Virus record (IMG/VR): IMGVR_UViG_3300034013_000139
Coordinates: 1 to 46,033 of that record
Reading direction: 5' to 3' (one strand)
DNA from: a virus
DNA: 46,033 nucleotides
Numbering within the stretch: position 1 is the stretch's first letter; every line of letters begins with the position of its first letter. The position numbers were made by a program, and so were the translations under genes. The notes beneath the pieces were generated by a model, which made no database searches, was not told the DNA's origin, and was given only the letters and a program-made list of their open reading frames with translations. Positions 1 to 45,747 of this stretch are shown piece after piece.

Positions 1-573
1 ACTGTCCCCGGTTCTGATGCGAACAGACCCAGCAAGGGGGGCATATCCGTTGCCCGCTGTCAGGATGCCCGCCGTTGCCGCGCTCGTCCCATAATTCGCA
101 AAGCCCGCCACCGCATAATTCGCATCGGGCATCGCAGTGGCGAAGTTGATCGTATAATCCCCCACGCCATTCCGCACGACCGACGACACGTTGCCCGATG
201 CGCGGATGGAGCCGTTGGTGCCGTTGAAGTTCACCCAAGCTCGGCAGGCGTAGAGAGGGGGCGCGCCGGTGGCGTTCAGTGTGCCGTTGAACGTGTCTTG
301 GATAGCCTCATTGCGAATTATTCGCCCCACATCGGTTCCGTTGACATTACCCCTAAACGAGCCGCCATCCCACCCGATGCGGATTTTATCGTTTCCCATC
401 CCTGCCCCACCGCCCTGCTCAACAGGCGTGAAGCCGATCGCACCCTGCACCTGCACCCAAGCCTGCCAGACGTCGGACATTTCACGCCGCCACCAGCGCG
501 CGCCGCTCGTGTAGCTGAACGCTTCCTGAAAAGCGAAGTCCACGGCGTTGGAGGCATAGTGCTTGATCGAAAA
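1..573. repeat. Fibre-tip repeat, copy 1 (matches 44041-44613)
   Basis: The two segments are in the same orientation and differ at only four positions in 573 (71, 72, 87 and 103 in this copy). Similarity falls sharply after base 573 although both sequences keep coding for fibre. The repeat encodes the C-terminal tip of both fibre proteins and starts exactly at the window edge. Confidence 0.97.
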
Positions 574-1350
574 GCTGTCGCCCGCATTCGGCGCACCCGT
601 CGCGCCGGGGTTGGCGAAATACTCACCCGCAACAGTCAGCGTGTTCAGGTTGGTGATAGCAGTCAGCGCATTCGATCCGATGCCATTTATCCCGATATCA
701 GCGCGAACTTCCGTAGGAGTACGGTACTGCAATGCAGTACCCGTTCCATTAGCACGTAGGTAGCTTGTTGCGTTCCCTGCAATTAGCGGTAAATTCACAC
801 TAGCTACGGCTTCTTCTGCTTCGATACGCGCTGTAGTTGCCAACGCAGCTTGAACAGTGGCAGTGCCTGCGCTACCCTCTGCTGCAATTTTAGCAGCTTC
901 CGCAGCAATCCGGTCTGCCGTAGTCTGTGCTACGTTGTCTGCAATGCCATCGGCAATCTCGTTAATCGTGTTAACAGTCTCAGTGATAAGAATGTTATCA
1001 GCTTCTCGGCCATCAGCCGCTTCTTGAACTGCCATAAGCGTTTGCTTGGTAGCACGAACAAGGTTACGTTTACTAACATCAGCGCCTGCCTCGAAATCAG
1101 CCACAAGTTCATCCAACGGAACAATCCGCTGAATAACACCAGTCTGTCCAGAAGTAAGGTCGTCCAGTACGGCCACATCGCCAGTTGCGGCGTTGTACGT
1201 AAAGGCGTACTCTACAGGGTCGCCAAGTCCATCAACAACCCCGTCAACAGTAACGCGAATGTGGTCTGCTTCCAGAACACCCAACGCAAAGTTGGTGGGG
1301 AACACTTGCGGACCACTTGTGTAAGTAAACGGCACTCTAGAGTAAGCCAT
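1..1350 (-). CDS. Tail fibre protein, T7 gp17-like (3' end cut off by window start)
   Basis: This virion protein forms the receptor-binding tail fibre. The first ~150 residues resemble the T7 gp17 N-terminal domain that attaches the fibre to the tail (MAYSRVPFTYTSG start, an ADHIRV segment, then a helical shaft-like stretch). A strong AAAGGAG ribosome site precedes ATG at 1350. The window holds 450 codons with no stop. The last 191 codons (1-573) are GC-rich and almost identical to the tip of the second fibre gene at 43987-45747, while the N-terminal part has the lower GC of the phage core. Joining base 1 to base 44040 adds 17 codons and a stop, giving 467 residues. The gene has its own phage promoter motif just upstream, as gene 17 does in T7. 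Confidence 0.9.
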   Translation of the reverse strand, partial: MAYSRVPFTYTSGPQVFPTNFALGVLEADHIRVTVDGVVDGLGDPVEYAFTYNAATGDVAVLDDLTSGQTGVIQRIVPLDELVADFEAGADVSKRNLVRATKQTLMAVQEAADGREADNILITETVNTINEIADGIADNVAQTTADRIAAEAAKIAAEGSAGTATVQAALATTARIEAEEAVASVNLPLIAGNATSYLRANGTGTALQYRTPTEVRADIGINGIGSNALTAITNLNTLTVAGEYFANPGATGAPNAGDSFSIKHYASNAVDFAFQEAFSYTSGARWWRREMSDVWQAWVQVQGAIGFTPVEQGGGAGMGNDKIRIGWDGGSFRGNVNGTDVGRIIRNEAIQDTFNGTLNATGAPPLYACRAWVNFNGTNGSIRASGNVSSVVRNGVGDYTINFATAMPDANYAVAGFANYGTSAATAGILTAGNGYAPLAGSVRIRTGDS

Positions 1351-1360
1351 TTGAAGTCTC

Positions 1361-1382
1361 CTTTCCATAAAACGGCCCCGGA
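1361..1382 (-). promoter_or_regulatory. Candidate phage RNA polymerase promoter before the fibre gene
   Basis: On the minus strand this element reads TCCGGG, five bases, TTTATGGAAAG. Three other intergenic sites (16955, 32687, 37635) share the pattern with identical spacing. It ends inside the ribosome site region of the fibre gene, the same place as promoter phi17 in T7. Promoter function is inferred from repetition and position. Confidence 0.65.
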
Positions 1383-1399
1383 TATTGCTACCCGGAGCC
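1369..1399 (-). terminator. Hairpin with short T-run after internal virion protein D
   Basis: On the minus strand GGCTCCGG pairs with CCGGGGCC (one G-T pair) around a 10-base loop, followed by GTTTT. It starts eight bases after the stop of the gp16-like gene and overlaps the promoter motif. It could terminate upstream transcription just as the fibre promoter restarts it. Confidence 0.5.
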
Positions 1400-1406
1400 A
1401 GTGTCC

Positions 1407-4400
1407 TTAATTTACAACGGCTTCTGTGACTGCCTCGGAAATCTTAGTAACCGGAGCAAGCGTCTCTGCGATAGTCGTTAGAATGTTGTCTTCTTTAGGC
1501 GGTGTAGGTTCTGCTTTATCTTTACCAGACTTAAGCAACTCTACCTGTCCGAACGTACCCATGCGAATAGCAGCCTCTACAGTACGGAAGAACGGGATAG
1601 CCCGCACAGCCTGATTGTCTGAGAAGTTGTTATCGCCAGTGATTACGTCCTTGATGGCACCCGGAGCGCGATACAGATTATTCATCGTATCTACGATAGG
1701 CACCGACAGCGGACGAGCATACGGCCCAAACGTGTTAAACCGCATGTCCTCAAGACCGAGGATACTCATAACAGGATCACTGTACATAGGCATCCATCCC
1801 GTAAGGTTAGAATACCCGAATGCAGTCTTAGCCCGCTCAATAGGATCACGGTCTGTGCCAGTGATCGTATCACGCAAACTAAGCGCAGTGTACGCAGAAC
1901 CATACGCAGCAAGCGCAGTAATCACAGCCTGTCCATCACGGTTCATTGCGTTCCTAAAGAACTGCTTCTGAATTGCTAGGATAGGGAATGTCTGCAAGTG
2001 CGTAAGAGCGCCACCCCATACAGTGTGCATCCAACGAGAAGTCTCGCCAGCAAGGGCTTTCTGGACCTGCTGGTTAACGCTTCTGTTCAATGCTGCTGCG
2101 AAGTCTGTGGCAAGCTGCTGATCCCACAAGTGCATGTTCAGCCGCTCTACATACGTAATGTCGCCAATAATACTCTTCTCAGTCTTAAAGACAATCGTAC
2201 CATCATCGACAAGCTGCTTGAGTGCATCAAAGTGATCCGGGTCTAGGCCCAAGTCTCGCTGTATACGTCCACCAAGCTGGAACTGCTCCATGTCACCGTC
2301 TTTAACAAGCCTACTGATCTTGTCCATCATACCTAGTGCAGCAACTTCCTGCTGATACTGGCGAACAGTGTTCATCAAAGACGTGTAGCCCTGAATGTAG
2401 TTACCTGCATTCAAGAGTTCACGGGAGCGCGTAAGGAATGCACGAGCAGTCTCGTTACCAACATGGAACTCGTTTGCTTCGTCAAGGTTCATGTGCAACC
2501 TGAGCGTATGGTGATCTTGCCCGATAGGCCCCATCATGTACGCAAGGTCACGCAAGCCTTCGCCTGCATTCTGTCGTAGATCATTGCTTACAATACGACC
2601 AAGGCCGCGACCGTACCAGTTCTTAACTCCAACCGATGCGATAGCAGTACCAGTCTCTGCAAGCTGTGCAAGCCCGTTAAACGGCAGCAGGATAAGTGAT
2701 GTAAGCTGCTTCATGTCAGACACTACGCCAAGGCCACGGTTCGTACCGCTGATCCCGTCATAGCCGACTTGTGGCCCACCGTCGAACTCAGAGAACATAG
2801 CTTCCAGCAGTTCAGGTTGCATAGGCTGTTCGCCAAGCGCCCGTTGCTCTGCCATAGCTGCCTCAATCCACTCTTTCCGGTTAGCACGAGAAGTTAGGCC
2901 ATGCCGTGCTAGTGCTGAGTTACCAGCAATCTGCCGAGCATACGTGCTGTACACGTTATCAAAGTCCGACTGCATCATGTCTACGATCTTAAGCCCGCTG
3001 TTTCCAATAGGCGTATCGAAGTCCAGATCATTACGGTTCTTAAGTGTACCGAGTTTACCGCGCTCTGCTACGTCACTGTCAAAGCGTTTCATCAGGCCAT
3101 CAATCGCAGCCCGCGTCATACCTGCACTCTCAAGCGACATACGTAGGAACTCCCTACCGTCTTGCGAGAACAGCCCAATCATCTGATCGTCTAGCTGGAC
3201 ACCACGAGCAACAAAGCGATCCACGTATGCCTTAGCGACTTCGCCAGCAAGCGTGGGATCAGTGAACGTGCCTGCACTCATATACGACTGCTTGTAAGCG
3301 TCGATCAGGTCTGCCTTGGTAATCGTACCATCGTTTAGCAGCTTAACCATCTTAGAGCCGTTCGCTCTATACGGCGTGAAGTGTGAGTTAGGCGCAATGC
3401 GCTCTGCACCAGCAAGCGGGATTTCATTGTCCCGCCCCTTGGCAATAGCAAGTGCTTCCTGTCCTGCACGGTCATACGCATCCGCAGCAGCACGAATACG
3501 TGCATCAGGGTTACGTGGTCTACCCATAGACACTGCGTTCATGTCCAGCATAACTGCACGATAGAACTCAGTCTGTCCTGCTCTGTTAGTCCCGACAGGT
3601 TTGTTGATGCCCGGTGCAGTAAACCACTGCTTACCGTTCGCGGCGGCCCATTCATTCATAAGCGACGGAACTTTGACAAGGTGTCCCGTTACGCGCTTGT
3701 TGTACATATCTGTCAGGTTAGCTGCGTTAGCAACAGACCCACGGACTTGACCGCCCGGAATTTCAAAGATCGCCGCAGCCATTCGATTAAGCACTGTTGA
3801 CTTAGACCGCCACAAGGAAGTCACGTCTCCTGTACCTATCTGGAACAGCGGGTTCAAACTCGCACGTACCCAAGCATCATCCATTGCAGTCTTAACCTTC
3901 AAGTCAAAGTCAGTTGACCATACGTAGTTCCGAGAGGCGTTGATGATGTTCTTGGTCGTCGTAGACATATTCCCTACAGGGTCTTTCAGTGCCGGGAAAG
4001 CGTTTGGTGTAGGGCCTGCTTTAGCAGCAGACAAGTCACCGCCTTGGTTCGGCGTGAACGCTGGAATGTCGAAGTCTTCCTCTGGTGCTGCAACTTGTGC
4101 TGGATTGTTAGGATCGACTGCTGCCGTAGGTTCAGGCGTCTCCATGACCATAGGTGTGTTACGGATATCCGTAACCATACTCGCTGGTACTTCGTCCGTA
4201 ATCTTCGTGTTAGTCGGCGCATAGAAGTACTCGTCGCCTTCTGCAATACGCTTTAGTGTACCTTTACGCAACTCATTCAAAGGCACCATGCTCTCAGGTG
4301 CAACTCCGCCAATGCCTGCACCAAGTGCTGCACTAGTGAGTGTAATCATTACGCCATCAACCCACGATGATACGTCGCTGTTCAGTGCCTCGCCAGCACC

Positions 4401-5066
4401 GATCAGCGCGCCCGCCTGAGCGCCGCCAGATGCCCCGGCTACAACACCACCAGCCCGCAGTGCAGACGTGTCACGCAGGCCCGCCAGCCGCGCCGCATAG
4501 GCAGCTTTGCCTGCGATCTTGGCCCCACCCACCATGCCGCCAGAGGCCAGCACGAGAGGCGCGTCAATGTCGATCAGGCCACCAGCCAGCGACACAACGG
4601 CAGCGGCTCCCCGGTCCAGCCCCATACGGCCTAGACGTGCCAATTCCTCGTCAATGTTCTTGCGTGTGATCTGTGCGCCTTCCAGACTGTCCTGTGCGAA
4701 CACGTCTTCCCAATACTCACGGGGAAGGTCTTTAGTAAGCGCATCGAAGTGCTGTGCTTTATCCCACGATGCTTCGCCCCATCTACCAGCCTGCCCTGTG
4801 ACTGCCATAAGCACATTACCAGCGACTTCAAGTGGGTTCTCAGTAGTGTCTACGCGCTGATCCAAGTTGCGTACAATCTTCGCAGCAACACTGTTATTGA
4901 TCGCGTCAGTAAACGCTTGCTTGGTTGTTCGTTTCTTCTCTGCCTGATGCTGTCGGAACGCACGTCCCTCTACAGTATCTCCTTGCAGGATGGGATCGAA
5001 ATACGTTGGAGTTTCCGCAGCAGGCGGTGCTTGAACTAGTTGTTCGGTATTGGCTGTATCCGCCAT
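1407..5066 (-). CDS. Internal virion protein D, T7 gp16-like ejection protein
   Basis: This very large virion protein (1219 residues, against 1318 for T7 gp16) is the last gene before the fibre and follows the gp14- and gp15-like genes, which is the T7 order. It should be ejected into the cell envelope to form the DNA channel. Residues ~150-260 contain glycine- and alanine-rich hydrophobic stretches that could insert in a membrane; the rest looks mostly helical. I see no lytic transglycosylase motif at the N-terminus, where T7 gp16 has one; a peptidoglycan hydrolase domain is instead in the gp15-like protein next door. About 280 bases coding for residues ~142-232 are distinctly GC-rich (42 of 60 bases in 4441-4500, against 26 of 60 in 3001-3060). 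The start has an AAGGAG ribosome site. Confidence 0.85.
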   Translation of the reverse strand: MADTANTEQLVQAPPAAETPTYFDPILQGDTVEGRAFRQHQAEKKRTTKQAFTDAINNSVAAKIVRNLDQRVDTTENPLEVAGNVLMAVTGQAGRWGEASWDKAQHFDALTKDLPREYWEDVFAQDSLEGAQITRKNIDEELARLGRMGLDRGAAAVVSLAGGLIDIDAPLVLASGGMVGGAKIAGKAAYAARLAGLRDTSALRAGGVVAGASGGAQAGALIGAGEALNSDVSSWVDGVMITLTSAALGAGIGGVAPESMVPLNELRKGTLKRIAEGDEYFYAPTNTKITDEVPASMVTDIRNTPMVMETPEPTAAVDPNNPAQVAAPEEDFDIPAFTPNQGGDLSAAKAGPTPNAFPALKDPVGNMSTTTKNIINASRNYVWSTDFDLKVKTAMDDAWVRASLNPLFQIGTGDVTSLWRSKSTVLNRMAAAIFEIPGGQVRGSVANAANLTDMYNKRVTGHLVKVPSLMNEWAAANGKQWFTAPGINKPVGTNRAGQTEFYRAVMLDMNAVSMGRPRNPDARIRAAADAYDRAGQEALAIAKGRDNEIPLAGAERIAPNSHFTPYRANGSKMVKLLNDGTITKADLIDAYKQSYMSAGTFTDPTLAGEVAKAYVDRFVARGVQLDDQMIGLFSQDGREFLRMSLESAGMTRAAIDGLMKRFDSDVAERGKLGTLKNRNDLDFDTPIGNSGLKIVDMMQSDFDNVYSTYARQIAGNSALARHGLTSRANRKEWIEAAMAEQRALGEQPMQPELLEAMFSEFDGGPQVGYDGISGTNRGLGVVSDMKQLTSLILLPFNGLAQLAETGTAIASVGVKNWYGRGLGRIVSNDLRQNAGEGLRDLAYMMGPIGQDHHTLRLHMNLDEANEFHVGNETARAFLTRSRELLNAGNYIQGYTSLMNTVRQYQQEVAALGMMDKISRLVKDGDMEQFQLGGRIQRDLGLDPDHFDALKQLVDDGTIVFKTEKSIIGDITYVERLNMHLWDQQLATDFAAALNRSVNQQVQKALAGETSRWMHTVWGGALTHLQTFPILAIQKQFFRNAMNRDGQAVITALAAYGSAYTALSLRDTITGTDRDPIERAKTAFGYSNLTGWMPMYSDPVMSILGLEDMRFNTFGPYARPLSVPIVDTMNNLYRAPGAIKDVITGDNNFSDNQAVRAIPFFRTVEAAIRMGTFGQVELLKSGKDKAEPTPPKEDNILTTIAETLAPVTKISEAVTEAVVN

Positions 5067-5084
5067 GTTAATCTCCTTGTGTGG

Positions 5085-5109
5085 AAGGGTGGCCCGAAGG
5101 CCACTCCTT
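5085..5109 (-). other. UUCG-capped hairpin between internal virion genes C and D
   Basis: On the minus strand GTGGCC-TTCG-GGCCAC forms a perfect 6-bp stem with a UUCG tetraloop. After one mismatch the stem continues for four more pairs. It overlaps the stop codon of the gp15-like gene. There is no T-run, so an RNA-processing or mRNA-stabilising site is as likely as a terminator. Confidence 0.6.
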
Positions 5110-8100
5110 ATTTCGTTATGTTACGCATGTCTTGCTTCTTGTACCACTCTCCGATTTCACTCATAGGAATTACTTTCGGGATAGTCACACCGTCGCCGTT
5201 GATAGTAAAGTCAAACATGATCTTACCTTGGCCGACATGATGCACTTGGAACATAGGCTTACCCAAACTCTGTGCAGTAGACATTTCGTCTGCCACGCCG
5301 GGAATGCTCTCGTACAGCCACTGCATAGCACCGACATTCGGTGTCATGTCGCCGTACTTCGCCTTGAACTCTGGTGAAGCCACGTAGCCTGAGATAGCCT
5401 TGGTAATCGTAAGCGGATCGCTCCTGTAGGCATCTGCCTGTCCAGAGAACATCTGCTCCATCAGATCGCCGCCACTTGCATCAACGAGCAGATTGTTCTG
5501 CCCTGCATACTCAGGGATCATAGACCGTGCTAGATTGACGTTCCCGGTCGCCATAGCCAGACCAGCAACGCCTGCACGAGCAGCAAGCCCGATTGAACCG
5601 GGGCCTTGCGCTGAACCATCACCGCCTTGAACACGAGTGTCCAGCGGGGCAATGCTGCGTACCACGGTTTCCTCTGCAACCTTTGCTGCCGATACTGGAT
5701 CAAGGTTAGGATTAAGCGCATGTAGCTTCTTAATCTGACTGTCCAGCATAGTACCTACAGTCGTGCGGGCATCGTTAGACAGTTCCATGCCATCAATAGT
5801 AGTCTGCGCTCCAAGTACTCGTGAGAATACCCTACGCAAGTTACTACCACCAAGCGCGTTGTTGATCGCTTTAGTAACCAAACCCTGCTCTGCAAAGTTC
5901 GGCCCCGGCTTACCATTCAACGGCGCACCAAGTCCTTTAGCCCACATATCCAGCACAACACGCCCAAGAGCATTAGGGTTGTTACCAGCCGTGAGCAAAG
6001 CTGCATCTGCAACAAGACGTGCATCTGCGTCGAGCATCTGGTTAGCTGCCGTGCTACTCTGTGCCTTAAGGTCGCGGTATGCAATGATAGTATCAAGAGC
6101 ATGTTGGCTTACAGTACCATCATCCTGCACAAGCTTGCCACGCAGTACTGCACTGGCTTCTGTACGAATGTTCTCAGGTACGTAGTTCGCTTGCACAAAG
6201 AACTTCTCAAGCTGTAGCTTATTGAAGTCCGCTACTTCCTCTGCACTAGGCGGTTGACCGTTCGGGCCATTCGTTCTAGCAAAGTTCTCCGTAGCTGCAC
6301 GTGCAGTCTCTTGTGCCTGCTTCCATGCGAGTTCTTGCACATTGGCTGGCTTCTGCCCAAGCGTACCTGTTTGGGTAGCCCGTGCTGCTTCTGCATTCAG
6401 CCTGCGATTGTCTGCTGCAAGTTTAGCAGCTTCAACACTAGTCTTAACTACCTTGCTGATCGTGTCACCAATACCAGAATGCTCAGGCTTAATCCCAAGC
6501 GATGCAGCAGCGTTGCTCATGTATCCAGTGTACTCGTCAAGAGCAAGTTGGATCGCCTGATCCTGTGCAAGCTTGAAGTCTGCATCAGACACGCCTTCCG
6601 GCTGTACCATGTTATCAATAGCCGCAACAGCAGATGCAAGCCCTGCATCAGCAATACTGCGCTCTCCTGCGAACTGGTCGAGGTTGATTGCGTAGTTGCT
6701 GTCGCTAACCTGCTCCGAGATAATCTTCGCGTTTTGTGCGCGCTGGTCCGACATTTTGATTACATGATCGACTTCTGCACGAGTGAGTGCTACGTCATAC
6801 TGGTTCATCAATGCAGTGCGCTGAGTACGATAGTCTTGTTCAGACATACCACCGTCAACATACTGCTTGTCGAGGATATCAAGCTGCGGCGTAATCGCTG
6901 CATACACGTCAATCGCCGTACGCTCACGCGCCAGTTCATAACGTGTCTGTGCTTCTGCTGCACGGCTCTCTGCCGTAACATACGCACGGCCTTCGATTGA
7001 TCCACCAAGACGTTCCACAAAGCCAGCAACATCAGGGTCGAGGTCCGCAGTACGTCTGCCAGTCTCGTTCCACGTCATAGCTGCATCGCTACCCATCGTG
7101 TACGCAACGGCTGCCATTTCCGTGTCGCCATTGAACTGCTTAACAATAGTTGCCCATTTCTGCGGATCAATGTCTCCAAGAGGTTTAGCATTAGTCACGC
7201 TACCGATTGTAGCCATCAGAGTGTTAGCATTCGCCTTAGCACCGGATGCCCACAGGTTCCCGCCGCCACCTTTCGTACCTACTAGGTCGATGTGCGCGTG
7301 TTCTCCGCCCATGTACTCAGCACCAAAGCCAATACCAGTTGCGCCTCTGGATGCTGCTGCGTCTGCAATAGCAACCATTTCAGGATCGTCTGCCTTGATC
7401 TTAGTACCGTCTGCACGATAGAACGCGAAGTCTCCTGCAAAGCCAGTCTTATGTCTGTTAGAACCATGCTGGTGTCCTTCATCTTCCTGACCACTCGTAA
7501 CTACTACCTTACCACCAGCACCGAGAACACTCTCTGCTGCTGCTGCAACAAGCGAGGTCAATTCGTTACGTGGTGGGTTGGGTCGCTTTGGCCCCATGCT
7601 AAACTGCACAGGAATGTTGTAGTCGTACACCTTACCGGGAGTAGACGGGTTAGCTGCATCTTGCGCGTAGTTATACGTGACTTCTGCAATACGCTCGTAG
7701 TCACCATTAAGCTTTGCAGTCTCAATCTCAAGCTTCACTGCTCGGTTGTGATGCTGCTCTGCACCGCGTCCAGTTGCGAACACATTGCTTGCTTCGGCAG
7801 CGGTCACAGTCATACCATGCTCAGTCATAAGCTGAGTATATTCTGCAAGCCCTTCCTCTGCACTGAGTTCATTGTTCTGGATTTTGCGGATCAACTCGTC
7901 TTCTGCGAACATGAACGCATCATTCCGCTCAGTCCTGCGACGGTTCTCGTATTGTGCTTGTGCAGACCGCATAGCGCCAATCTCTTGCGGAGACATGCTA
8001 TCAAACACGCCCTGCTGGTCGAGGATAGTAAACGCCATCGGGTTGCCATTCGTGTAAGCACGGACAACACCATCAACAACAGCCTTGCGACGTGCTTCTT

Positions 8101-34737: not shown

Positions 34738-34804
34738 TTGAGGTATCTCCTGTTAAGATGGACACAGTAGGACAGACGCTCACGCATCTGCCCAGCTTCA
34801 CCCA

Positions 34805-35312: not shown

Positions 35313-35313
35313 A

Positions 35314-35753: not shown

Positions 35754-35823
35754 GGCGTTATTCCTTTTGCTAGATGAACGCAAGTCAGTGCCCGCTGTTA
35801 CACAGGCACTCACATTTCGTGCA

Positions 35824-36416: not shown

Positions 36417-36437
36417 GTTAATGCCCTTTCATTGGCT

Positions 36438-36560
36438 GGTGATAGAATACTGCCAAGGATTGAAACATGCTGTTGCTATTGTCGCTGATATCACTCCACC
36501 GTGGCGGTCCATCGTGCATTTTGTGGACAAGCCGCATGTCCTTGGCAGTACACTATCACC
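36438..36560 (-). repeat. Large inverted repeat just before the first early gene
   Basis: The 22-base arms (36438-36459 and 36539-36560) pair at 20 positions. After a 6-base bulge the stem continues with ACATGC/GCATGT. On the minus strand this is a 123-base stem-loop ending 22 bases before the start codon at 36416, next to its ribosome site. RNA stability, an RNase III site or a terminus-related structure are possible roles. Confidence 0.85.
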
Positions 36561-37109
36561 CTAGCTATACGCTGATACCCATTGCTAATGCAAAGATCAT
36601 GTTGGCATGACTTAGTAACGCTATATAGATCGGGTGTAGTGCGCTTTCCCGTGTAGCCTTTATGTATACGCTATTAGGGCGACCAGCACTGTGCTAAGCA
36701 ATGCGTTGTCCTTTACCCGACAAGTCGGTGTCACTGGTGCATCGCAGGCCGGGTCCACGGTTATCCTGCTACTGTACGGCCTATCCAGCCACCCTAACGG
36801 TTATGCCGCATTGTGTAACTATTGCCACACTCAACAGCGCCGCATCATAGGGATGCACATATCACCTGTTTTCGACAAGGCACAGTCAAGCCCGTTCCTT
36901 TATAGTGCGGTCGCAGCACTCGCCCGGTCGCAGAACTCAGCATCACTGCCTTGCCCTACGTCTAGACACTATTCACCCAAAGCCGCAGGCGGTTCATTCG
37001 TTCAGCGCTTCCCAAGCCCGCAGGCCCTTCCTGTCGCTTACTAGGGATGCCGTTCCCTGTCGCTTTCGATGTTTATAGTTATACAGGCTTTTTCGGTACG
37101 TTCAAGCAC

Positions 37110-37136
37110 AAAAAACACTGATAAATCAATCACTTA
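37110..37136. repeat. 27-bp direct repeat, copy 1
   Basis: The perfect 27-base sequence beginning AAAAAACACTGATAAATC recurs 87 bases away at 37197-37223. Both lie in the non-coding leader. Short direct repeats near the terminal repeats are a T7 feature. Confidence 0.93.
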
Positions 37137-37196
37137 CAAGATAGTTTCATTTGAACGGTATCGTACAGTTATACCCTAGAACCTACTCAACAGTTC

Positions 37197-37223
37197 AAAA
37201 AACACTGATAAATCAATCACTTA
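37197..37223. repeat. 27-bp direct repeat, copy 2
   Basis: Identical to 37110-37136 over 27 bases. Each copy is preceded by a GTTC or TTCAA segment. Three imperfect 11-base TTCGTT units follow at 37240-37272. Confidence 0.93.
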
Positions 37224-37380
37224 GCCTATCTTGTCCTATGTTCGTTGCTAATTCGTTCCTGATTCGTTCTCTTCTGCCTGTTGTGTATGAATAGATATCG
37301 CGCGTGTAGTATATTCTTATACGCGCGTGTATGCCTTGCTTGCATGGTATCCAGCGACCATACCTAACTACAGGTTGAGT

Positions 37381-37560
37381 GCTTATTATAGGTATATTAA
37401 GACTATATTAAGAAGATATATTAACTTAATATATTATAAGTAATATTATACATATATTATCTTAATATCTTATCTAATACTTAATAAGACTATATTATAA
37501 CCTATTATATACATATCATATATAACGTATGTACCATACACTGTAACTGATACCTTAATC
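37381..37560. other. Very AT-rich block in the leader
   Basis: The first 60 bases contain only ten G or C, and the block is dense in TATA and TTAATAT steps. It is a candidate easily melted region for replication initiation or a cluster of host promoter -10 elements. No unique -35/-10 pair stands out. Confidence 0.6.
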
Positions 37561-37634
37561 AGTCTTATATCTAACAGTTATAATCTGCTCTGTTATTCGG
37601 TAAGACATAGATACACTGGATCAGTGAGTATGTA

Positions 37635-37656
37635 TTATCCATAAAGGATACCCGGA
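37635..37656 (-). promoter_or_regulatory. Candidate phage RNA polymerase promoter in the leader
   Basis: On the minus strand it reads CTTCCGGG, TATCC, TTTATGGATAA, with the same 5-base spacing as the other three copies. Transcription from here would run through the leader into the early genes. Confidence 0.65.
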
Positions 37657-37893
37657 AGCTAAGGCATTGATAATCAATGATTAATTAATGGTTTATAACA
37701 GTAGGGCTAACAGGCACTAATTGAGTTTAACATATGAGTTATTCATGCAGGTTATATGAGTGAAAAGGTAATTGATGCACACACAAGCCTGCATGATATC
37801 AAGCAATGATCAATCAATGATTAACCCATGATTAACAGGCATACCCCCATGGGGGAACTGTGCGCGCTGTGGATATCTATACCTCCACACAAT

Positions 37894-37922
37894 TTTATAC
37901 CAAATTTTGACATTTGCTTTAA
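37894..37922 (-). promoter_or_regulatory. Candidate host sigma-70 promoter for early genes
   Basis: On the minus strand TTAAAG and TATAAA are separated by exactly 17 bases, with an extended -10 TGG before TATAAA. It is the best host-type promoter seen in the leader, upstream of all early genes. The -35 match is weak (3 of 6). Confidence 0.45.
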
Positions 37923-37971
37923 TAGTGGAGTACACGAGCATACACCCATGTACTCCTCCATCGTAAACTGC

Positions 37972-38259
37972 TTACACAGTACCAGTACCATCAAACACTA
38001 CGCGCTTACCGCCCGCAGAATACAGCTTGATCTTGCCACCAGTCGTGCTGAACGCCCACAGCACCAGAGTATCACCTTGCTTGATGATGACCTCAGTTGC
38101 TTCACCAGCAATGACCGCAGGGCCATCAGTAGGTGCCGTTGCTTTCCGACCAATCTTCACGTCAGTCTTGTTCGTCAGGATATACAGATGGTTCCCGACC
38201 TCAGCTACAGCAGCCGAAATGTTCGTCCACGTGTTAGCCGCCAAAAGTACTTCTTTCAT
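37972..38259 (-). CDS. Hypothetical beta-rich protein, possible virion decoration (95 aa)
   Basis: The protein starts MKEVLLAANTWTNISAAVAE behind GGAGA and seems to be all beta (HLYILTNKTDVKIGRK, GDTLVLWAFSTTGGKIKLYS). It is the last gene of the late region, behind another beta-rich repetitive protein. Small beta domains of this kind often decorate heads or fibres, but no family is recognised. Confidence 0.6.
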   Translation of the reverse strand: MKEVLLAANTWTNISAAVAEVGNHLYILTNKTDVKIGRKATAPTDGPAVIAGEATEVIIKQGDTLVLWAFSTTGGKIKLYSAGGKRVVFDGTGTV

Positions 38260-38365
38260 TGTTCTCTCCAATACTGTTATGTCTGCTGTTATGATCCCCG
38301 CAGACTTCGTGGGAGGACCGCCAGAGGCCCATTCGTGATCCGGCTACCCTTGGTCGGATAATCCA

Positions 38366-38406
38366 GAGAAGGTCAATTCTCGCCCGTCTGGCGAAGCGCC
38401 GTGGGC
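38366..38406 (-). other. Two adjacent hairpins between the last two late genes
   Basis: On the minus strand GCCC-(AC)GGCG-CTT-CGCC-GGGC (38382-38406) is followed by GAGAA-TTGACC-TTCTC (38366-38381). They fill part of a 158-base gap without a gene. There is no T-run; they may tune readthrough or mRNA decay. Confidence 0.4.
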
Positions 38407-38417
38407 AATTCCGCGCC

Positions 38418-39326
38418 TTACGGAGCCGTGTAGCCCTGAGCATTGATCCGAACGGTCCCGGTGGCCGAGAGGTTCGCGTTCAACGCAGTGTTTGCCGTAG
38501 CGAGTAGATGCGTAACTGCAAAGTCGAGTTGCACAGGCACGTTGATCGGCAGAGGAAGCCGGAAGCGTTCCGTAGCACCATCTAGGATAATCAGTTCCAC
38601 CGTTGCTGCACCAGTGTTAATCACCTGAGCGCCTGTGATGTGTCGTTTAAGACCAGCACCAGCAGCCGCAGCAAGAGCCTGAGCAGTAGTAGTCGTGAGT
38701 GCCAGTGAGGCATTCCATGCAGTTTCAGCAACACCGCCGTTCTTAACGAGCAATTGACCCGCAGGCGTCATAGTGTGGTCTACAGCATCACCAGCAACGA
38801 ACGTAGTCTGGTGAGTAGCACGCACTCGGCCACCAACTCGAACAGCGTTACCAGCGATAGCAACGTCTTCGGCACCTTGACCAACAGCAGTTGCGTTTAC
38901 CGTAGGCGTACCAGAGATAGTAACAGCCGGGGTTCCTGAAATAGACACCGCACCGGATACAGGTTGTGTAGTGATTACACCAGCCTCAGTTTCTTGCATA
39001 GTATACACGGCAGTACCACTACCATGCGCGGTTGCCCGAAGCCGGAAGTACGTATATCCGCTGATATCAAACTCCCACGAGTATGCAGGAGCAGCACCGA
39101 GCGTACCAGTTGCAGTTTCTACCACGTTAGTACTGCGAATGCCCTGAATAGGCACCCAAGTGCCGTTTACACCATCAGTACTGTCAACACTTGCTTCAAA
39201 TGCAGTAGCGTGACCAGCAAAAGTACCGCTGAGTTGGACAGTAAGACCAGTCTCACGAGTACGATACACACGAGTTTGTGCGTTTGCGGTGATAGTTACC
39301 GCTGTCCGTTCTTTTTGTTTCGTCAT
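38418..39326 (-). CDS. Predicted virion surface protein, head-fibre or decoration type (302 aa)
   Basis: The protein is Thr/Ala/Gly-rich and beta-structured. The N-terminal half looks like an Ig-type or carbohydrate-binding fold (TVQLSGTFAGHATAFEASVD to YFRLRATAHGSGTAVY). The middle has SGTPAVTISGTPTVNA repeats, and the C-terminal half another beta domain. Such proteins are typically attached to phage heads or tails. It lies after the lysis genes, outside the main structural block. The call rests on composition and layout only. Confidence 0.6.
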   Translation of the reverse strand: MTKQKERTAVTITANAQTRVYRTRETGLTVQLSGTFAGHATAFEASVDSTDGVNGTWVPIQGIRSTNVVETATGTLGAAPAYSWEFDISGYTYFRLRATAHGSGTAVYTMQETEAGVITTQPVSGAVSISGTPAVTISGTPTVNATAVGQGAEDVAIAGNAVRVGGRVRATHQTTFVAGDAVDHTMTPAGQLLVKNGGVAETAWNASLALTTTTAQALAAAAGAGLKRHITGAQVINTGAATVELIILDGATERFRLPLPINVPVQLDFAVTHLLATANTALNANLSATGTVRINAQGYTAP

Positions 39327-39327
39327 A

Positions 39328-39543
39328 TTACCTCGCTCCTGCCGTTACAGCAGCAATAAGTCGAGTACCTGTGATGATGCTTTCATCGCACTCAGGCACG
39401 TTACAGTCCGCGAGTGCAGCGGCGTGATCTTTCGCAAGCGGGAGTACTGATTGCTTGATCGCAGTCGTACTATTCGGCGTACTTACGCAGCCACTCACGA
39501 GCATCGTCAACAGTAAGGTTCCGCACACTGTCAATCGCTTCAT
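39328..39543 (-). CDS. Outer-membrane spanin lipoprotein, Rz1-like
   Basis: The 71-residue protein starts MKRLTVCGTLLLTMLVSGC, a lipoprotein signal peptide with lipobox LVSG before the cysteine at 19. It overlaps the Rz-like gene by 74 bases in another frame, the usual nested spanin arrangement. It would pair with Rz to fuse inner and outer membranes in the last step of lysis. GGAGAG precedes the ATG. Confidence 0.82.
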   Translation of the reverse strand: MKRLTVCGTLLLTMLVSGCVSTPNSTTAIKQSVLPLAKDHAAALADCNVPECDESIITGTRLIAAVTAGAR

Positions 39544-39712
39544 TGATACTCTCCATCGTTTGTTCATAAGCCTCTGCTTCTTTCGCTTTCTGCTTCATGC
39601 GCTCGTCTCGCGTAGCATCGTACCGAATATACAGTACAGCGCCGACCAGAATAGCAATGGCGAGAGCCGGTTTCCACCAAGCCCTCGCCAAGGTCCACCA
39701 CAGACCGATCAC
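39470..39712 (-). CDS. Inner-membrane spanin, Rz-like
   Basis: The 80-residue protein has one N-terminal membrane segment (~14-30, KPALAIAILVGAVLYIR), followed by a charged coiled coil (residues 35-70) reaching into the periplasm. The gene overlaps the holin-like gene by four bases and contains the Rz1-like start. Together they form the spanin complex. Confidence 0.85.
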   Translation of the reverse strand: MIGLWWTLARAWWKPALAIAILVGAVLYIRYDATRDERMKQKAKEAEAYEQTMESINEAIDSVRNLTVDDAREWLRKYAE

Positions 39713-39936
39713 TTAGGCACTTCCTCGGCCTTACCAACGGGTGTGTTAGTAATGGTCCGCATGTAAGCGTTCACCGTGATCACCGCGAGAGTGTAGAGAG
39801 GATACCACTCAGGCGGAATTACCGACCCAAACTGCGGGTCAACCAACACTGCCAGCACCACATCGACAATCAGAGGGAAAGTCATAACGAGGTTCACCAG
39901 CAGCGTACGAAATCCTTTAAGAAACTCGAATTTCAT
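39709..39936 (-). CDS. Holin-like small membrane protein (75 aa)
   Basis: Two hydrophobic segments are visible (~11-33 and ~44-59), with a charged C-terminus (NTPVGKAEEVPK). It lies between endolysin and spanin genes with 4-base overlaps, the normal place for a holin that times lysis by opening the inner membrane. The frame at 43159 is a second candidate. Confidence 0.72.
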   Translation of the reverse strand: MKFEFLKGFRTLLVNLVMTFPLIVDVVLAVLVDPQFGSVIPPEWYPLYTLAVITVNAYMRTITNTPVGKAEEVPK

Positions 39937-40661
39937 TGCTTCTTACCTTTCAGAAACGACAGAATGAAGGCCATCAGGCTTTGTTTCTGCGTATGTTGTG
40001 GCTTCAAAGCAGCCTCATGGCGCTTCAAAACCGTATACCAGTCCATTGCAGCACGAGCAATCTGCGCTCCTTGCGTACGAACGTCACCATTCACGATATC
40101 ACGCGCTTGCGTAAGGCGTTGATGCGTCGGTTCAGTACCCACAGGGCAGTATGTCTCGAACTTACGGTTGCGGAAACGGCCATTATGGATACCATCGTAC
40201 ATGATAAACAGCGCAGTTTCCCAATCGAGTGCAAGATCGGGGTTATTAACGAGCGGTTTGCCCGTAAGAACCTCGTATTTCTTGTAGTTGTCCAGCCAAG
40301 TGATCTGTACAAGACCGCGACCATAGTAAGATTTGCCGTTAATCGGCGTTACATAGTCGTGTTTGATAAGACCACGCGCCATAGCGTTCCGTACTGCTGC
40401 ACGAGCCTGAGCATCGGTGATTGTCGGACCAGACAGCGTAGCACCCTCTCGAATAGGTTGATACCAGTAAGCCGTTTCATGTCCAGCAGTAGCCAGATTG
40501 TATGCAATCTCGGCAATCCGGTAGTTATTCTTAAGCCCGTACTCCACGATACGCAGAATGCCATCATCGGCACCCTGCTTTAGCTTCGTATCAGTAGAAC
40601 GCAACCAATCGACAAGGAAGTTCTGCTCTTGTGCCGTACGTTCTCGCTTAGTTGGTGCCAT
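39933..40661 (-). CDS. Endolysin, glycoside hydrolase 19 family
   Basis: The 242-residue enzyme cleaves peptidoglycan glycan strands at lysis. GH19 features are ATAGHETAYWYQPIREGA with catalytic glutamates E62 and E72, and GRGLVQITWLDNYKKYE (115-131). No signal peptide, so export needs the holin. ATG 40661 behind GAGGG is preferred over a GTG nine bases upstream. The start lies within the end of the previous gene. Confidence 0.92.
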   Translation of the reverse strand: MAPTKRERTAQEQNFLVDWLRSTDTKLKQGADDGILRIVEYGLKNNYRIAEIAYNLATAGHETAYWYQPIREGATLSGPTITDAQARAAVRNAMARGLIKHDYVTPINGKSYYGRGLVQITWLDNYKKYEVLTGKPLVNNPDLALDWETALFIMYDGIHNGRFRNRKFETYCPVGTEPTHQRLTQARDIVNGDVRTQGAQIARAAMDWYTVLKRHEAALKPQHTQKQSLMAFILSFLKGKKQ

Positions 40662-41028
40662 CGGCGGCACCCTCGGTCTTGGTCGGTTCAGATTGCCCTT
40701 CCTGCTTCACAGGATCGTCGCCTGTGGGCTGTTCGGGTTCTGCCGGGGCCTCAGTAGCCTCTGGCTCAGACGCCTCTCCACGGGCCGCTGCCGCAGCTAT
40801 AGCCGCAGCACGAGTTTCGGCCTGCATTTCATACCGACGCTTTGCAAACAGGTATAGTACCTTAAGCGTATCCATTAGTGCTTCGTTCTTCTCCGGGTTC
40901 CCGGTCTGGCGTTCAATAGCCTTAAGCACTTCGTTCTTCATCTTGTACAGGAAACCAGTCTTGTCCTGCGGGAACGTCAGCAGTCGCGGGTTCAGTACGC
41001 CTTCGTTCGGATCAGTCTTGTCAGTCAT
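40648..41028 (-). CDS. Hypothetical protein with acidic low-complexity tail (126 aa)
   Basis: The N-terminal 75 residues are helical and basic; the last 45 are Ala/Glu/Pro-rich and probably disordered (EASEPEATEAPAEPEQ). It lies between large terminase and endolysin with overlaps on both sides. No family recognised; a packaging or lysis accessory role would fit the position. Confidence 0.6.
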   Translation of the reverse strand: MTDKTDPNEGVLNPRLLTFPQDKTGFLYKMKNEVLKAIERQTGNPEKNEALMDTLKVLYLFAKRRYEMQAETRAAAIAAAAARGEASEPEATEAPAEPEQPTGDDPVKQEGQSEPTKTEGAADGTN

Positions 41029-42812
41029 TTATACAACCTCTTGTGTCTTTCTAGGGACGTACCCTGTGTGCCAATGCCGTGCATACCTGCAAAGCCTTTG
41101 ATCGGTCGGCCATTCCCTAGAGGATTAGCCATGAGTTTCCGGTAGAGTTCTTTCTGAGCAGCTACCTTAACCTTCTGCTCGTCTTGACGTAGGGCCTCAA
41201 CCCAATACCGCACTGAGCCAGCAAGGGCATCAAGGCGGTCGTCATGGATCAGCGAGTTCCTGTCTCGTGTAATACGCGACATTTGATAGAACGTAGAGTA
41301 ACTCGGCTTGTCTTGGATAGCGTATCTATCGCAATAGCGCATATCCTGCTGTAGTACGTCTTCGTCTACGAGCAATCTGTGTGACGAGATAACAGGCTCA
41401 AGGATATCAATGATCCTTAGTTCTTTCTGCCCACTCTCCCACGTTTCCTCAATACCGCACTTGTGCGCTTTAATCAGGTGTGGTTCCCAGATGTTCTTGA
41501 ACGCGCCGTTACCGTAGTTCTTTTCAATCGTAATAACAGTCGGCTTGTACTTTACTGCAATGGCAGTCATAGCGTCTAGCAGGTCTTGCCCGTATCCGCC
41601 TTTATAACCACCAATTGCTACCCAAAATACCTTCCCGGCCATAAACCGGGTTACTGCAAACGCACACTCGTCACCATTAGCCCCACCACCAGCAGGGTCA
41701 ACGTGCATGTTCGTGCCTTGATACGATCCGAACTCGCTAGAGAACGAATGCGCTCGGTAGAACGGGCTTTCGATAGGGAAGTCTGGCGGTGTAAACACGC
41801 GGTATTCCGGTGCTTGTAGCCAGTTAACCTCAATCGGTGCGCGCTCTTGCGGTACACGCATGAACACAAGGTTACTAGGCTTAATCGGAAAGCGATCACG
41901 GTCCATAAGACGGGTATCCAGCATGTGCTGCAATTGGAAATACGCGCGTCCTTGGTCAATCTCTTTCTTCGTAAGCGTTGCTTCATTCAACAGTTGCGGG
42001 TCTGTAGGCTTACCGCGATCACTCGTCGGTCCACCACCAGTACGCAAAGACGGGTCTTTCTGCACAGCCTGTCGAATAATGGGAGCAAGAAATGCCCCGT
42101 AGTTCGTTTCTTCTTCCTCGGTCGGGAAACGTCCCGGCCACACACGGATATCAAATCCACGGGATGCCAAGCCGTTATACACGCTGTCAATAGACTGCGG
42201 CGTACCGAGATAGATAATGTCTCCATTAGAACAGATAGACGTGAAGTCTTTAGTCAGGTGCTTCAATCGCTCACGTTGTACTTCGGTCTGGCTGTTCTTA
42301 GACGATTCAATGTCGTCAGCGATAATGATATCTGCGCGCTTACCTTGCATGTTGGACCCAATGCCCATACACGCAATAGAGGGTGATTTCTCTGGTCCCT
42401 TAAGAGCATAGTGTACGTCGAATGCCTTAACGCTCTCCCGGTCGCCTGCTGTTTTGTCAGGGCGCAAGCAGCGTAGTTCATCCATACCTTTGATGATCTG
42501 GATAACCCAATTGGCAATCTCGGTAGCCATCGTGTCACCACTCGATACGATAAGTACGCGAGTAGATGGTTCGTGAATTAGTCGCCACACAGCATAAGCT
42601 GCTGTAATGGTTGTCTTAGCCTGCCCACGTTGGGCTTGTATCATTCGATACAGAGGACCGGATTGCAAATACAGGGCCATGTCTAGCTGCAACGGTGTGC
42701 AGTCAAAGCCCAATAGCCCTGTAATTACGTCATAGAGAAACTCCCGAAAGTCCGGGTATGCCTCTTGCAGAGTATGCAATTCGGTCCAGCGTTCTTCGGG
42801 GGTTAAATCCAT
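41025..42812 (-). CDS. Terminase large subunit, T7 gp19-like
   Basis: The packaging motor (595 residues; T7 gp19 has 586) couples ATP hydrolysis to DNA translocation and cuts concatemers. ATPase motifs: Walker A AQRGQAKT (60-67), Walker B DIIIADD (161-167) and coupling motif YLGTPQ (201-206). Nuclease motifs: HVDPAGGG (D372), TIEKNYGNGAF (E430) and HDDRLDALA (D525, D528). It overlaps the neighbouring genes by one and four bases. Confidence 0.96.
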   Translation of the reverse strand: MDLTPEERWTELHTLQEAYPDFREFLYDVITGLLGFDCTPLQLDMALYLQSGPLYRMIQAQRGQAKTTITAAYAVWRLIHEPSTRVLIVSSGDTMATEIANWVIQIIKGMDELRCLRPDKTAGDRESVKAFDVHYALKGPEKSPSIACMGIGSNMQGKRADIIIADDIESSKNSQTEVQRERLKHLTKDFTSICSNGDIIYLGTPQSIDSVYNGLASRGFDIRVWPGRFPTEEEETNYGAFLAPIIRQAVQKDPSLRTGGGPTSDRGKPTDPQLLNEATLTKKEIDQGRAYFQLQHMLDTRLMDRDRFPIKPSNLVFMRVPQERAPIEVNWLQAPEYRVFTPPDFPIESPFYRAHSFSSEFGSYQGTNMHVDPAGGGANGDECAFAVTRFMAGKVFWVAIGGYKGGYGQDLLDAMTAIAVKYKPTVITIEKNYGNGAFKNIWEPHLIKAHKCGIEETWESGQKELRIIDILEPVISSHRLLVDEDVLQQDMRYCDRYAIQDKPSYSTFYQMSRITRDRNSLIHDDRLDALAGSVRYWVEALRQDEQKVKVAAQKELYRKLMANPLGNGRPIKGFAGMHGIGTQGTSLERHKRLYK

Positions 42813-43159
42813 TAATCCTCTCCTACAACTCGAAGCTGTGATAGTTCAGTGACGTTCGCGCGCTTCTTACGGCGGTCTTCTAGACCTTTCTGCAAAGCAC
42901 TGATCTTGTCAACTTGCTCGTCGTCAAACCTGATTTCGTTGTTCTTGAGGAACGCCGTGATAGCGTTCATCATCGCCGGGTTCGGCATTGCTCCTTCGTC
43001 AAAGATTTCCTTAAGGATTTCATCTTCAACATCATCAAGGTTAACAGCGTCTAGTGCATCCAACCGCTGCTCGTACCTAAGAAGAACCTTCTCAAATACG
43101 GCAGCGATCTTTGCATGTAGTGCGCCGAGTTTAACCTCTGTTGCTGCACCTTTTGCCAT
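42812..43159 (-). CDS. Terminase small subunit, T7 gp18-like
   Basis: The 115-residue helical protein (MAKGAATEVKLGALHAKI) lies directly before the large subunit and overlaps it by one base. DNA-recognition proteins of this size and charge guide packaging in T7-like phages. The start at 43159 is in a TAATG overlap with the membrane-protein gene upstream; a longer frame lacks support. Confidence 0.85.
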   Translation of the reverse strand: MAKGAATEVKLGALHAKIAAVFEKVLLRYEQRLDALDAVNLDDVEDEILKEIFDEGAMPNPAMMNAITAFLKNNEIRFDDEQVDKISALQKGLEDRRKKRANVTELSQLRVVGED

Positions 43160-43431
43160 TATATTCCAAATACCTTTACTACTACGGTGATAATCAAAGG
43201 CACTACCATGGAGATAGTAGCAATGATCCCTGCCATTTTCCACTGGAACTGTTCTAGGCGCGTAATACGCTTGTCCTGATTGCTCAGAGCATCGCGGATT
43301 TCATGCCTGTGTTCCTTGAGGTCGGTGCGGCTGTTCTCCATAGACGTAATTAGGTGCTTTACATCGCTTCTAATCTCGCCCAAAGCTACTCCAAAAGTGT
43401 CCTTCGTGTCTGGTTGATGTGATGTCGTCAT
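43159..43431 (-). CDS. Membrane protein with coiled coil, possible gp17.5-like holin (90 aa)
   Basis: The protein has a charged coiled-coil region (~15-63) and one C-terminal membrane segment (~66-87, MAGIIATISMVVPLIITVVVKV). T7 has its holin gene 17.5 exactly here, between fibre and small terminase. The layout also resembles XhlA-type lysis accessory proteins. It overlaps both neighbours. Confidence 0.65.
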   Translation of the reverse strand: MTTSHQPDTKDTFGVALGEIRSDVKHLITSMENSRTDLKEHRHEIRDALSNQDKRITRLEQFQWKMAGIIATISMVVPLIITVVVKVFGI

Positions 43432-43976
43432 GCGTCTTTCCAGTACTTGTCGTCAGTGTAGTCTTTTGGAATGCTAGGGGCATCCTTAATAAACCACCCT
43501 GCCTGAAACATTTTGCTTACAAACTCAGCAGACCGCGACCATAATTCAATAATCTCCAACTGCGTGAGTTCATACACGTAATCCGTGTTGTCTCTGAACA
43601 GTGTAATTACTGCGCCTTGGCCTTGAGCAACTCGCATACTTGCTGCAAAAGCAAGTGCCTGCAAGTTCTCTTTGGTCGTGTTATCTCCGCGCAAGGAAAT
43701 TTGCTTGCCTGTTGACAATGCAAATGTTTTTCCTTGCTCGATCCTGCGGTCGCGCTCGGCGTTAATGGCTTCTCCGGGTATTGGTGCCGCATGGATATCT
43801 CCATCGTCGCTCCACAGCCATTCACTCGCGGGCGGTAGATCGTCGCTGTTGATGATGCGGTGCGGTGTGTTTTCAGGGACCACGGCGGCGGCAACGTCTG
43901 CAATGTCAGCATCCGTCGCGGGGGATACGATGACGACACGGTTCTGCGGGTTGGGGTAGATGATTAGTTGTGTCAT
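43428..43976 (-). CDS. Tail fibre assembly-like protein with DUF4376-type domain (182 aa)
   Basis: The middle region (AINAERDRRIEQGKTF, ~69-84) is typical of DUF4376 proteins, which often follow phage fibre genes and are thought to help fibre folding. The start MTQLIIYPNPQNRVVIV follows GAGGAC, ten bases after the fibre stop. The first ~80 residues are encoded by GC-rich DNA like the fibre tip; the rest has the lower GC of the phage core. That change within the gene suggests the 5' part was acquired together with the tip. Confidence 0.72.
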   Translation of the reverse strand: MTQLIIYPNPQNRVVIVSPATDADIADVAAAVVPENTPHRIINSDDLPPASEWLWSDDGDIHAAPIPGEAINAERDRRIEQGKTFALSTGKQISLRGDNTTKENLQALAFAASMRVAQGQGAVITLFRDNTDYVYELTQLEIIELWSRSAEFVSKMFQAGWFIKDAPSIPKDYTDDKYWKDA

Positions 43977-43986
43977 GGGCATGTCC

Positions 43987-45747
43987 TCAGCGGAAAATGA
44001 CGACGTTGACGAATTGCGCGTCCTGACCAACTCCGGTCGCACTGTCCCCGGTTCTGATGCGAACAGACCCAGCAAGGGGGGCATATCCGTTGCCCGCTGT
44101 CAGGATGCCCCACGTTGCCGCGCTCGGCCCATAATTCGCAAAACCCGCCACCGCATAATTCGCATCGGGCATCGCAGTGGCGAAGTTGATCGTATAATCC
44201 CCCACGCCATTCCGCACGACCGACGACACGTTGCCCGATGCGCGGATGGAGCCGTTGGTGCCGTTGAAGTTCACCCAAGCTCGGCAGGCGTAGAGAGGGG
44301 GCGCGCCGGTGGCGTTCAGTGTGCCGTTGAACGTGTCTTGGATAGCCTCATTGCGAATTATTCGCCCCACATCGGTTCCGTTGACATTACCCCTAAACGA
44401 GCCGCCATCCCACCCGATGCGGATTTTATCGTTTCCCATCCCTGCCCCACCGCCCTGCTCAACAGGCGTGAAGCCGATCGCACCCTGCACCTGCACCCAA
44501 GCCTGCCAGACGTCGGACATTTCACGCCGCCACCAGCGCGCGCCGCTCGTGTAGCTGAACGCTTCCTGAAAAGCGAAGTCCACGGCGTTGGAGGCATAGT
44601 GCTTGATCGAAAAACTGTCAGTTCCGTTTGGCGCACCCGTGGCGCCGGGACTGGAGAAATACTCACCCGCGACAGTCAGCGTGTCTAGATTGGTGATCGT
44701 CGGCGCGGTTTCCGATCCGATGCCGTTGATGGACAGGTAGGCGCGATAATCAGCAGGTGTTCCAAGCGCCGCCCGAAACGCCGCCTTATTCGGAATATCA
44801 GCGCCGTTCTGCGACTTCTGAAGCATGTCAGCCGTTGCGAACGCGCCGAACCCGATGATCTCGATACTGTCACCGACAGCCGCGCCCGTCGCCAGCGTTA
44901 TCGACGTGCCGTTCAGGGCAGTGAAATCATCGCCCGAAACCAGCTTCACGCCGTTCAGATATACCGTCACGAAACCGATGTCATACACAGCGGCAAAGAC
45001 GGTCTGCCCAGCCGTGGCGGTATAGGCATATTGGGCGATCATCCCGTTCACCGAGGACGCCGCGTTGACCCACGCCGCGCTTGCCCTGACTTTCATCCGG
45101 TTATCGACGGTATCGAAATACAGATCACCCGTCAGCAACGGCCCGCCATTATTCCGCAGCGTAGGCGCGACAGCCTTCGGCCCCTGATACACGTCCGCGA
45201 AATTCGTCACATCCACGATGTTATCGGCCACGATCGCGACATCAGCCACGTTCGCCGCGACCGTATCGACATCAGCGATATTCGCAGCCACGGTATCGAC
45301 CGCCACCACGCTATCGGCCACGCGCACGATGTCAGCCACCAGCGCGTCGAGATCGAACGTCGCAGCGCCGACCGGGATTTTCACCGACCGATCCACTTGT
45401 TCCTGAAGTTGCTGATCCCGCATGACGCCGAGATCAAGGGCGTCTTCGATGGTCTGAGCGTAATACGCGCCCTGATTTTCCAGATCGGTCTGTTGCGTGA
45501 ACGGCGCGTTCCTGATCAGCGTGATCGTCTGCGCCGCCGTGGGGGCGACAGAGAACACCACCGACCCGCCAGCAGCACCTACGCCCGTCACCGTGAACCC
45601 GTTCGTCAAGACAGTATCCACGCCGCCTTCAGTCCGCACCACCCGGATATGCGAGGCGTCCAGAATGCGGAACCCATAGGCAAACGATGTCGTGACACCG
45701 TTCCCAGTATAGGGTCCAGATTTATTGATCGCGCTGGGAACGGTCAT
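43987..45747 (-). CDS. Second tail fibre protein, GC-rich, sharing the tip of the first
   Basis: The 586-residue protein has a T7-type adsorption domain (MTVPSAINKSGPYTGNG to PFTQQTDLENQGAYYAQTIEDALD, residues 1-105), then a repeated helical shaft (DTVAANIADV and variants, ~145-185), a beta region and a C-terminal tip (379-586) whose residues to 569 match the first fibre almost exactly. The N-terminal two thirds differ from the first fibre in sequence and base composition (40 of 60 G+C at 45301-45360). It probably belongs to another phage or prophage. The stop at 43987 also serves the first fibre if the ends are joined. Confidence 0.88.
   Translation of the reverse strand: MTVPSAINKSGPYTGNGVTTSFAYGFRILDASHIRVVRTEGGVDTVLTNGFTVTGVGAAGGSVVFSVAPTAAQTITLIRNAPFTQQTDLENQGAYYAQTIEDALDLGVMRDQQLQEQVDRSVKIPVGAATFDLDALVADIVRVADSVVAVDTVAANIADVDTVAANVADVAIVADNIVDVTNFADVYQGPKAVAPTLRNNGGPLLTGDLYFDTVDNRMKVRASAAWVNAASSVNGMIAQYAYTATAGQTVFAAVYDIGFVTVYLNGVKLVSGDDFTALNGTSITLATGAAVGDSIEIIGFGAFATADMLQKSQNGADIPNKAAFRAALGTPADYRAYLSINGIGSETAPTITNLDTLTVAGEYFSSPGATGAPNGTDSFSIKHYASNAVDFAFQEAFSYTSGARWWRREMSDVWQAWVQVQGAIGFTPVEQGGGAGMGNDKIRIGWDGGSFRGNVNGTDVGRIIRNEAIQDTFNGTLNATGAPPLYACRAWVNFNGTNGSIRASGNVSSVVRNGVGDYTINFATAMPDANYAVAGFANYGPSAATWGILTAGNGYAPLAGSVRIRTGDSATGVGQDAQFVNVVIFR
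44041..44613. repeat. Fibre-tip repeat, copy 2 (matches 1-573)
   Basis: Same orientation as 1-573 with four differences in 573 bases. After 44613 the sequences diverge at once. The repeat is the only long similarity between the phage core and the GC-rich right end. Confidence 0.97.

Follow-up and report, generated by a model that had tools for sequence, protein, structure and literature searches.

A T7-like phage record that probably continues through a shared fibre tip into a second, epsilon15-like phage

The DNA analysed here, called the window below, is the entire 46,033-base IMG/VR record IMGVR_UViG_3300034013_000139 (G000), classed 'linear'. We conclude, with a probability of roughly 0.88, that it is a chimeric assembly, in which one circuit of a T7-like phage (a map of about 44.04 kb with one fibre) has run via a shared fibre tip into a second, L106-like phage. 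Bases 1-44040 would represent one circuit of a T7-like podovirus, in which a DUF4376 chaperone-like gene and then the terminase genes come after the fibre gene. The assembly path would cross at 44041-44649, in a fibre tip that is also carried by a second phage of the community, and would then enter an L106-like podovirus, passing through its fibre stem and the 3' end of a polyvalent-protein gene to the contig end. The tip itself would have become shared via recombination, as a high-GC cassette of about 840 bp that moved between unrelated phages. The sample probably contained two phages, not one hybrid genome, and both would have occurred in it together.

The sequence-only reading had reported a repeat between the two ends of the window, with four differences between bases 1-573 and 44041-44613. 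The count was correct: substitutions were found at positions 71, 72, 87 and 103, leaving exact-match blocks at 1-70 and 104-573 (470 bp). The similarity extends to 690/44730, with 95.7% overall (BLAST E = 0), far above chance. A terminal overlap of at least 6 bases between the two ends of the 46,033-base record was not found. Both copies of the repeat form the C-terminal tip of a minus-strand fibre gene, and the stems differ between the copies. Fibre 1 is laid out as a PF03906 N-terminus, a low-GC stem (50.9%) and then the tip. The features are as follows.

1-573, minus strand: fibre-tip repeat copy alpha, the 3' part of fibre 1, interrupted where the contig begins (GC 60.9%)
44041-44613, minus strand: fibre-tip repeat copy beta, four differences from alpha; its letters are present in the contig L002
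1-1368, minus strand: fibre 1, with a PF03906 N-terminus (Pfam E 4.7e-6), PHROG tail fibre, truncated at the contig start
43987-45747, minus strand: fibre 2 reading frame, an L106-type stem (PHROG tail fibre) with tip beta
43987-44040, minus strand: completion of fibre 1 on closure, 17 codons and a stop, which follow fibre 1 in L002

Closure of the T7-like circuit was seen directly in an independent sequence, L002 (IMGVR_UViG_3300042564_001993, 12,051 bases), the closest relative by terminase, with a terminase protein 100% identical to that of the window. L002 runs without interruption through internal virion protein, fibre 1, tip, the 17 codons, DUF4376 and terminase. It has one fibre only; no second fibre was found in it, and nothing of the stretch past the tip. 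In a 12-kb alignment with window 34107-44040 followed by 1-2165, its only differences from the closure are a 48-bp deletion at 40881-40928 and 13 substitutions; the segment 44008-44040 is found exact in both L002 and L192. The 13 substitutions fall in the tip, at 71-103 and 574-601, and at all of these positions L002 has the bases of the 44041-44641 copy (beta). L002 follows the beta letters through 601 and the fibre 1 letters beyond, and the switch lies in a short tract.

602-609, minus strand: 8-bp tract common to the two fibres, in which L002 passes from tip beta into the stem of fibre 1; the stem-side edge of the cassette

Since an assembler would hardly change between sequences within only 8 shared bases, L002 is probably a true recombinant with tip beta. 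Its population is not fully identical to that of the window, as seen from tip beta and the 48-bp deletion. The segment absent from L002 sits between direct repeats beginning CTTCGTTC, which are 48 bp apart. It corresponds to 16 codons, a slippage-type length variation in a small gene (40648-41028) adjoining the endolysin.

The gene order of relatives was also in agreement with closure at 44040. It had been proposed that this closure places the fibre before DUF4376, the gp17.5-like gene and terminase, and both L002 and the set of 37 relatives bear this out. The set comprises those loci that hold both a fibre N-terminus and a terminase, L002 included, and the fibre was upstream of the terminase, in the same orientation and contiguous, in 37 out of 37. 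The end of the internal virion protein gene lies just upstream of the fibre in all except one, a contig that starts inside the fibre. The distance from fibre start to terminase start ranges from 2065 to 5016 bases in the relatives (median 2948). It is 2596 for the 44,040 closure, the same value as in L002, and 4589 for a 46,033 circle, which the distance alone does not exclude. The window genes that are relevant here are listed below.

1407-5066, minus strand: internal virion protein (phrog_342), upstream of fibre 1
16988-19459: single-subunit phage RNA polymerase (phrog_414, E 2.3e-262), a T7-like trait
41025-42812, minus strand: terminase large subunit, T7 type (PF22530, phrog_38)
42812-43243, minus strand: terminase small subunit (PF11123, DNA_Packaging_2)
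43159-43431, minus strand: gp17.5/holin-like small protein, with a weak match only (phrog_689 holin, E 0.0097)
43428-44084, minus strand: DUF4376 gene, a likely fibre chaperone (PF14301, E 6.2e-9)

Genes for a T7-type terminase, connector, capsid, internal virion protein and PF03906 fibre are all present in window 1-44040, and the T7-like late order, which ends in fibre, small genes and terminase, is obtained solely after closure at 44040. In parts of the terminase region, the window phage has about 69-71% DNA identity with the T7-like podoviruses Rhizobium phage RHph_X3_9 and Paracoccus phage ParKuw1, but unlike them it has a fibre tip cassette of foreign GC content. The earlier figure of about 44.04 kb for the closed genome is supported as a circular map length and not necessarily as the length of the virion DNA, because T7-like virion DNA is normally linear with direct terminal repeats, which an assembly collapses, and would be longer than the map by one terminal-repeat copy.

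The argument from the reading frame fared less well. It is true that the join of 44040 to base 1 keeps fibre 1 in frame and adds 17 codons and a stop. However, this is not independent evidence, because the repeat occupies the same frame of both fibre genes. The rival join of 46033 to base 1 likewise keeps the frame: 71 codons and a stop are added, and the resulting gene of 527 codons ends just before fibre 2. Both joins being in frame, the frame therefore cannot separate the closure models, and that base 46033 meets base 1 in frame is most readily seen as a coincidence with a chance of one in three.

The claim that the window leaves through the shared repeat into other DNA was supported by the composition and gene context of 44614-46033.

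44614-46033, minus strand: foreign extension of 1,420 bases, from an L106-like (epsilon15-like) phage; GC 61.2% versus 51.0% in the core
45818-46033, minus strand: last 71 codons of a polyvalent-protein gene (phrog_9880 positions 2170-2228 of 2231, E 1e-8)

The GC content of the extension is close to that of L106 (60.5%). Its 4-mer distance is 0.32 to L106 and 0.63 to the core, and the latter exceeds that of every core window (0.26 +/- 0.04, maximum 0.45). L106, also L082, is the 48,555-base record IMGVR_UViG_3300042363_000610. Bases 44656-46033 align to it continuously, with 90.06% DNA identity, up to the last base of the window, which falls within the 3' end of the polyvalent-protein gene. 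In L106 this gene (423-8216, 2,597 codons) encodes a large polyvalent protein with ART-PolyVal (ADP-ribosyltransferase) and LPD22 domains. It is followed by a fibre 2 homologue with a different tip and then by a gene whose N-terminal part is also present in the DUF4376 gene of the window. No relative of the window's terminase was found in L106. The L106 connector belongs to phrog_332 and the capsid protein to Pfam GP7 (PF20911), the epsilon15-type capsid family. A search for near-identical copies of the fibre 2 stem yielded no more than L106/L082 (91%) and the partial L087, and an exact pattern from the tail matched L106 as the only record. A record in which a near-identical fibre 2 stem and tip beta sit together on their own backbone was not found. 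The idea that the 45818-46033 tail contains a frameshift, prompted by another frame that ends in ..TLAARVI, was rejected, since phrog_9880 and L106 show a natural C-terminus in the given frame.

Tip beta, a shared stretch of about 610 bp, thus joins a side with 51% GC to a side with 61% GC. A short-read assembler could have crossed between the phages here, because the approximately 609 identical bases would exceed the short-read length. The exact sharing of bases 1-70, with a difference at 71, is what an assembly-graph branch would leave.

Three other explanations were weighed. The window might be a complete circular genome of 46,033 bp, cut at an arbitrary point, with tandem fibres and a duplicated tip, in which fibre 1 ends in the 71-codon tail. 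The in-frame join described above would suit such a circle, and the size is within the 42.4-46.6 kb of full-size relatives. However, the chance of an in-frame join is about 1 in 3, the ends do not overlap, the block is absent from L002, and 44614-46033 is foreign in composition. Moreover, the 71-codon tail is the C-terminus of the 2,597-residue product of the L106 gene, with DNA similarity up to the last base. We regard such a genome as highly improbable and reject it on composition and the L106 match. A structural variant of the T7-like phage, its fibre 1 replaced by an L106-type fibre together with part or all of a polyvalent gene, would require that two alleles of one phage species were stitched together in the record. 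The fibre locus is indeed polymorphic, with two tip alleles, and tip beta is contiguous with T7-like genes both in the window and in L002. The insert, however, retains the GC and 4-mer signature of the donor to the contig end, and the interval from fibre to terminase never rises above 5.0 kb in the 37 relatives. With a complete polyvalent gene, a 44-kb T7-like genome would grow by up to 7.8 kb, an increase that packaging would probably resist. We therefore consider this variant very unlikely.

The repeat of 573 bp might also be the phage's own terminal redundancy, i.e. a direct terminal repeat. In length it falls within what is usual for phage terminal repeats, and it is located at one end of the contig. 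Against this, four sites differ between the copies, and the two lie in fibre genes whose stems are not alike. In L002 the tip occurs once, in the interior of the contig, and the AT-rich gap at 37.4-37.6 kb makes a more suitable candidate for a genome end. The packaging end of T7-like phages is not known to lie within a fibre gene, and we attach a virtually negligible probability to this explanation.

In the preferred reading, a T7-like circuit continued into an L106-like phage, the tip belongs to a larger cassette that includes part of the DUF4376 gene.

43807-44040, minus strand: cassette part of 59% GC, with the last 17 codons of the fibre and the N-terminal half of DUF4376; common to L110, L111 and L106

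Together with 1-609, this segment forms an 843-bp island of 61.2% GC, which tops all 828 core windows of the same size (maximum 57.5%). The C-terminal half of DUF4376 (43428-43806) is core-like, with 47.8% GC, and the N-terminal half belongs to the cassette. The GC content of the fibre 1 stem (50.9%) likewise resembles that of the core. From its composition, the tip appears to be imported DNA, foreign to the T7-like genome. Versions of the cassette occur on other stems in L110, L111 and, more distantly, L106. L110 (GC 61.7%) carries a DNA-ejection protein (phrog_598), and L111 (GC 62.6%) is a distinct T7-like phage. The tip of the window is 95% identical in amino acids to that of L110 over 166 residues and 89% to that of L111 over 106, whereas the terminase of L111 is only 40% identical to the window's and a search of L110 gave no terminase match. 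According to alignments, the DUF4376-gene proteins of the window, L110, L111 and L106 have the N-terminal half in common, and their C-terminal halves are unrelated. A DUF4376 score was obtained for the protein of the window alone, and comes from its C-terminal half. A host scan with the tip gave just partial matches of 38-73% in diverse bacterial genomes, mostly MAGs.

For about 609 bp, as far as the GC-rich 8-bp tract, no base differs between the fibre of L002 and fibre 2 of the window. We consider it reasonably probable that a compact mobile cassette, consisting of the tip and the N-terminal half of DUF4376, passed very recently between a 51% GC T7-like and a 61% GC epsilon15-like phage of one community, with one edge inside a conserved linker of the stem and the other separating the two chaperone domains. 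The direction of transfer would be from phages of about 61% GC to the phage of 51% GC. Letters 71-72 of the first copy agree with L110 and L111, and bases 1-103 may therefore derive from another tip allele. The closure is firm in structure, but some uncertainty attaches to individual letters in about the first 600 bases of the closed genome. The contig L087 (bases 1-793) opens within a gene of the fibre 2 type. This gene has the start of the tip in common with the window (78% DNA identity to 44410-44866) and then diverges, probably at another tip crossover point.

Fibre-tip exchange and chimeric contigs are both already documented, and neither is a new kind of event. In the Alteromonas phages A5, V22 and P24, a module of tail fibre and DUF4376 chaperone is common to unrelated families, which has been attributed to horizontal transfer and recombination (PMC10579305). 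The window is similar in that a fibre piece and the adjacent DUF4376 gene are shared across unrelated phages, but differs in that only the tip and the N-terminal half of DUF4376 are involved, at about 90% or higher DNA identity, and in that the assembler was misled. By analogy with that module, the tip would bind the receptor and the DUF4376 protein would be its chaperone (PMC10579305); the shared pieces fit a recombination cassette that would carry receptor specificity and part of a chaperone-like gene. Tail fibres and tail spikes specifically are reported to show recent domain mosaicism across families (PMC10684548). The high-identity C-terminal domain on unrelated stems, across families, resembles those cases, but here there is a single environmental example, with a composition step at both cassette edges. 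Chimeric or fragmented contigs from mosaic phages and repeats, and terminal repeats merged into circles, have also been discussed (PMC10563150). As in such chimeras, the path changes genome through a shared stretch longer than the read or k-mer; unlike in them, the contig completes a full circuit first, and for this reason the shared segment is seen twice.

It would be misleading to take the record for a 46-kb two-fibre phage, since its last 1,420 bases most probably belong to a different phage, and at about 44.04 kb the T7-like genome is effectively complete. When a host-range module has been exchanged recently, it can thus splice unrelated phages in databases. The window also offers a clear example of a swap of tip and half-chaperone, with edges that are readable from composition.

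Elsewhere in the T7-like part, an AT-rich intergenic stretch was noted at 37000-37800, where GC drops to 21.5% at 37401-37600. Two identical 28-bp direct repeats lie within it, at 37109-37136 and 37196-37223, and the stretch is a candidate early promoter, origin or genome-end region.
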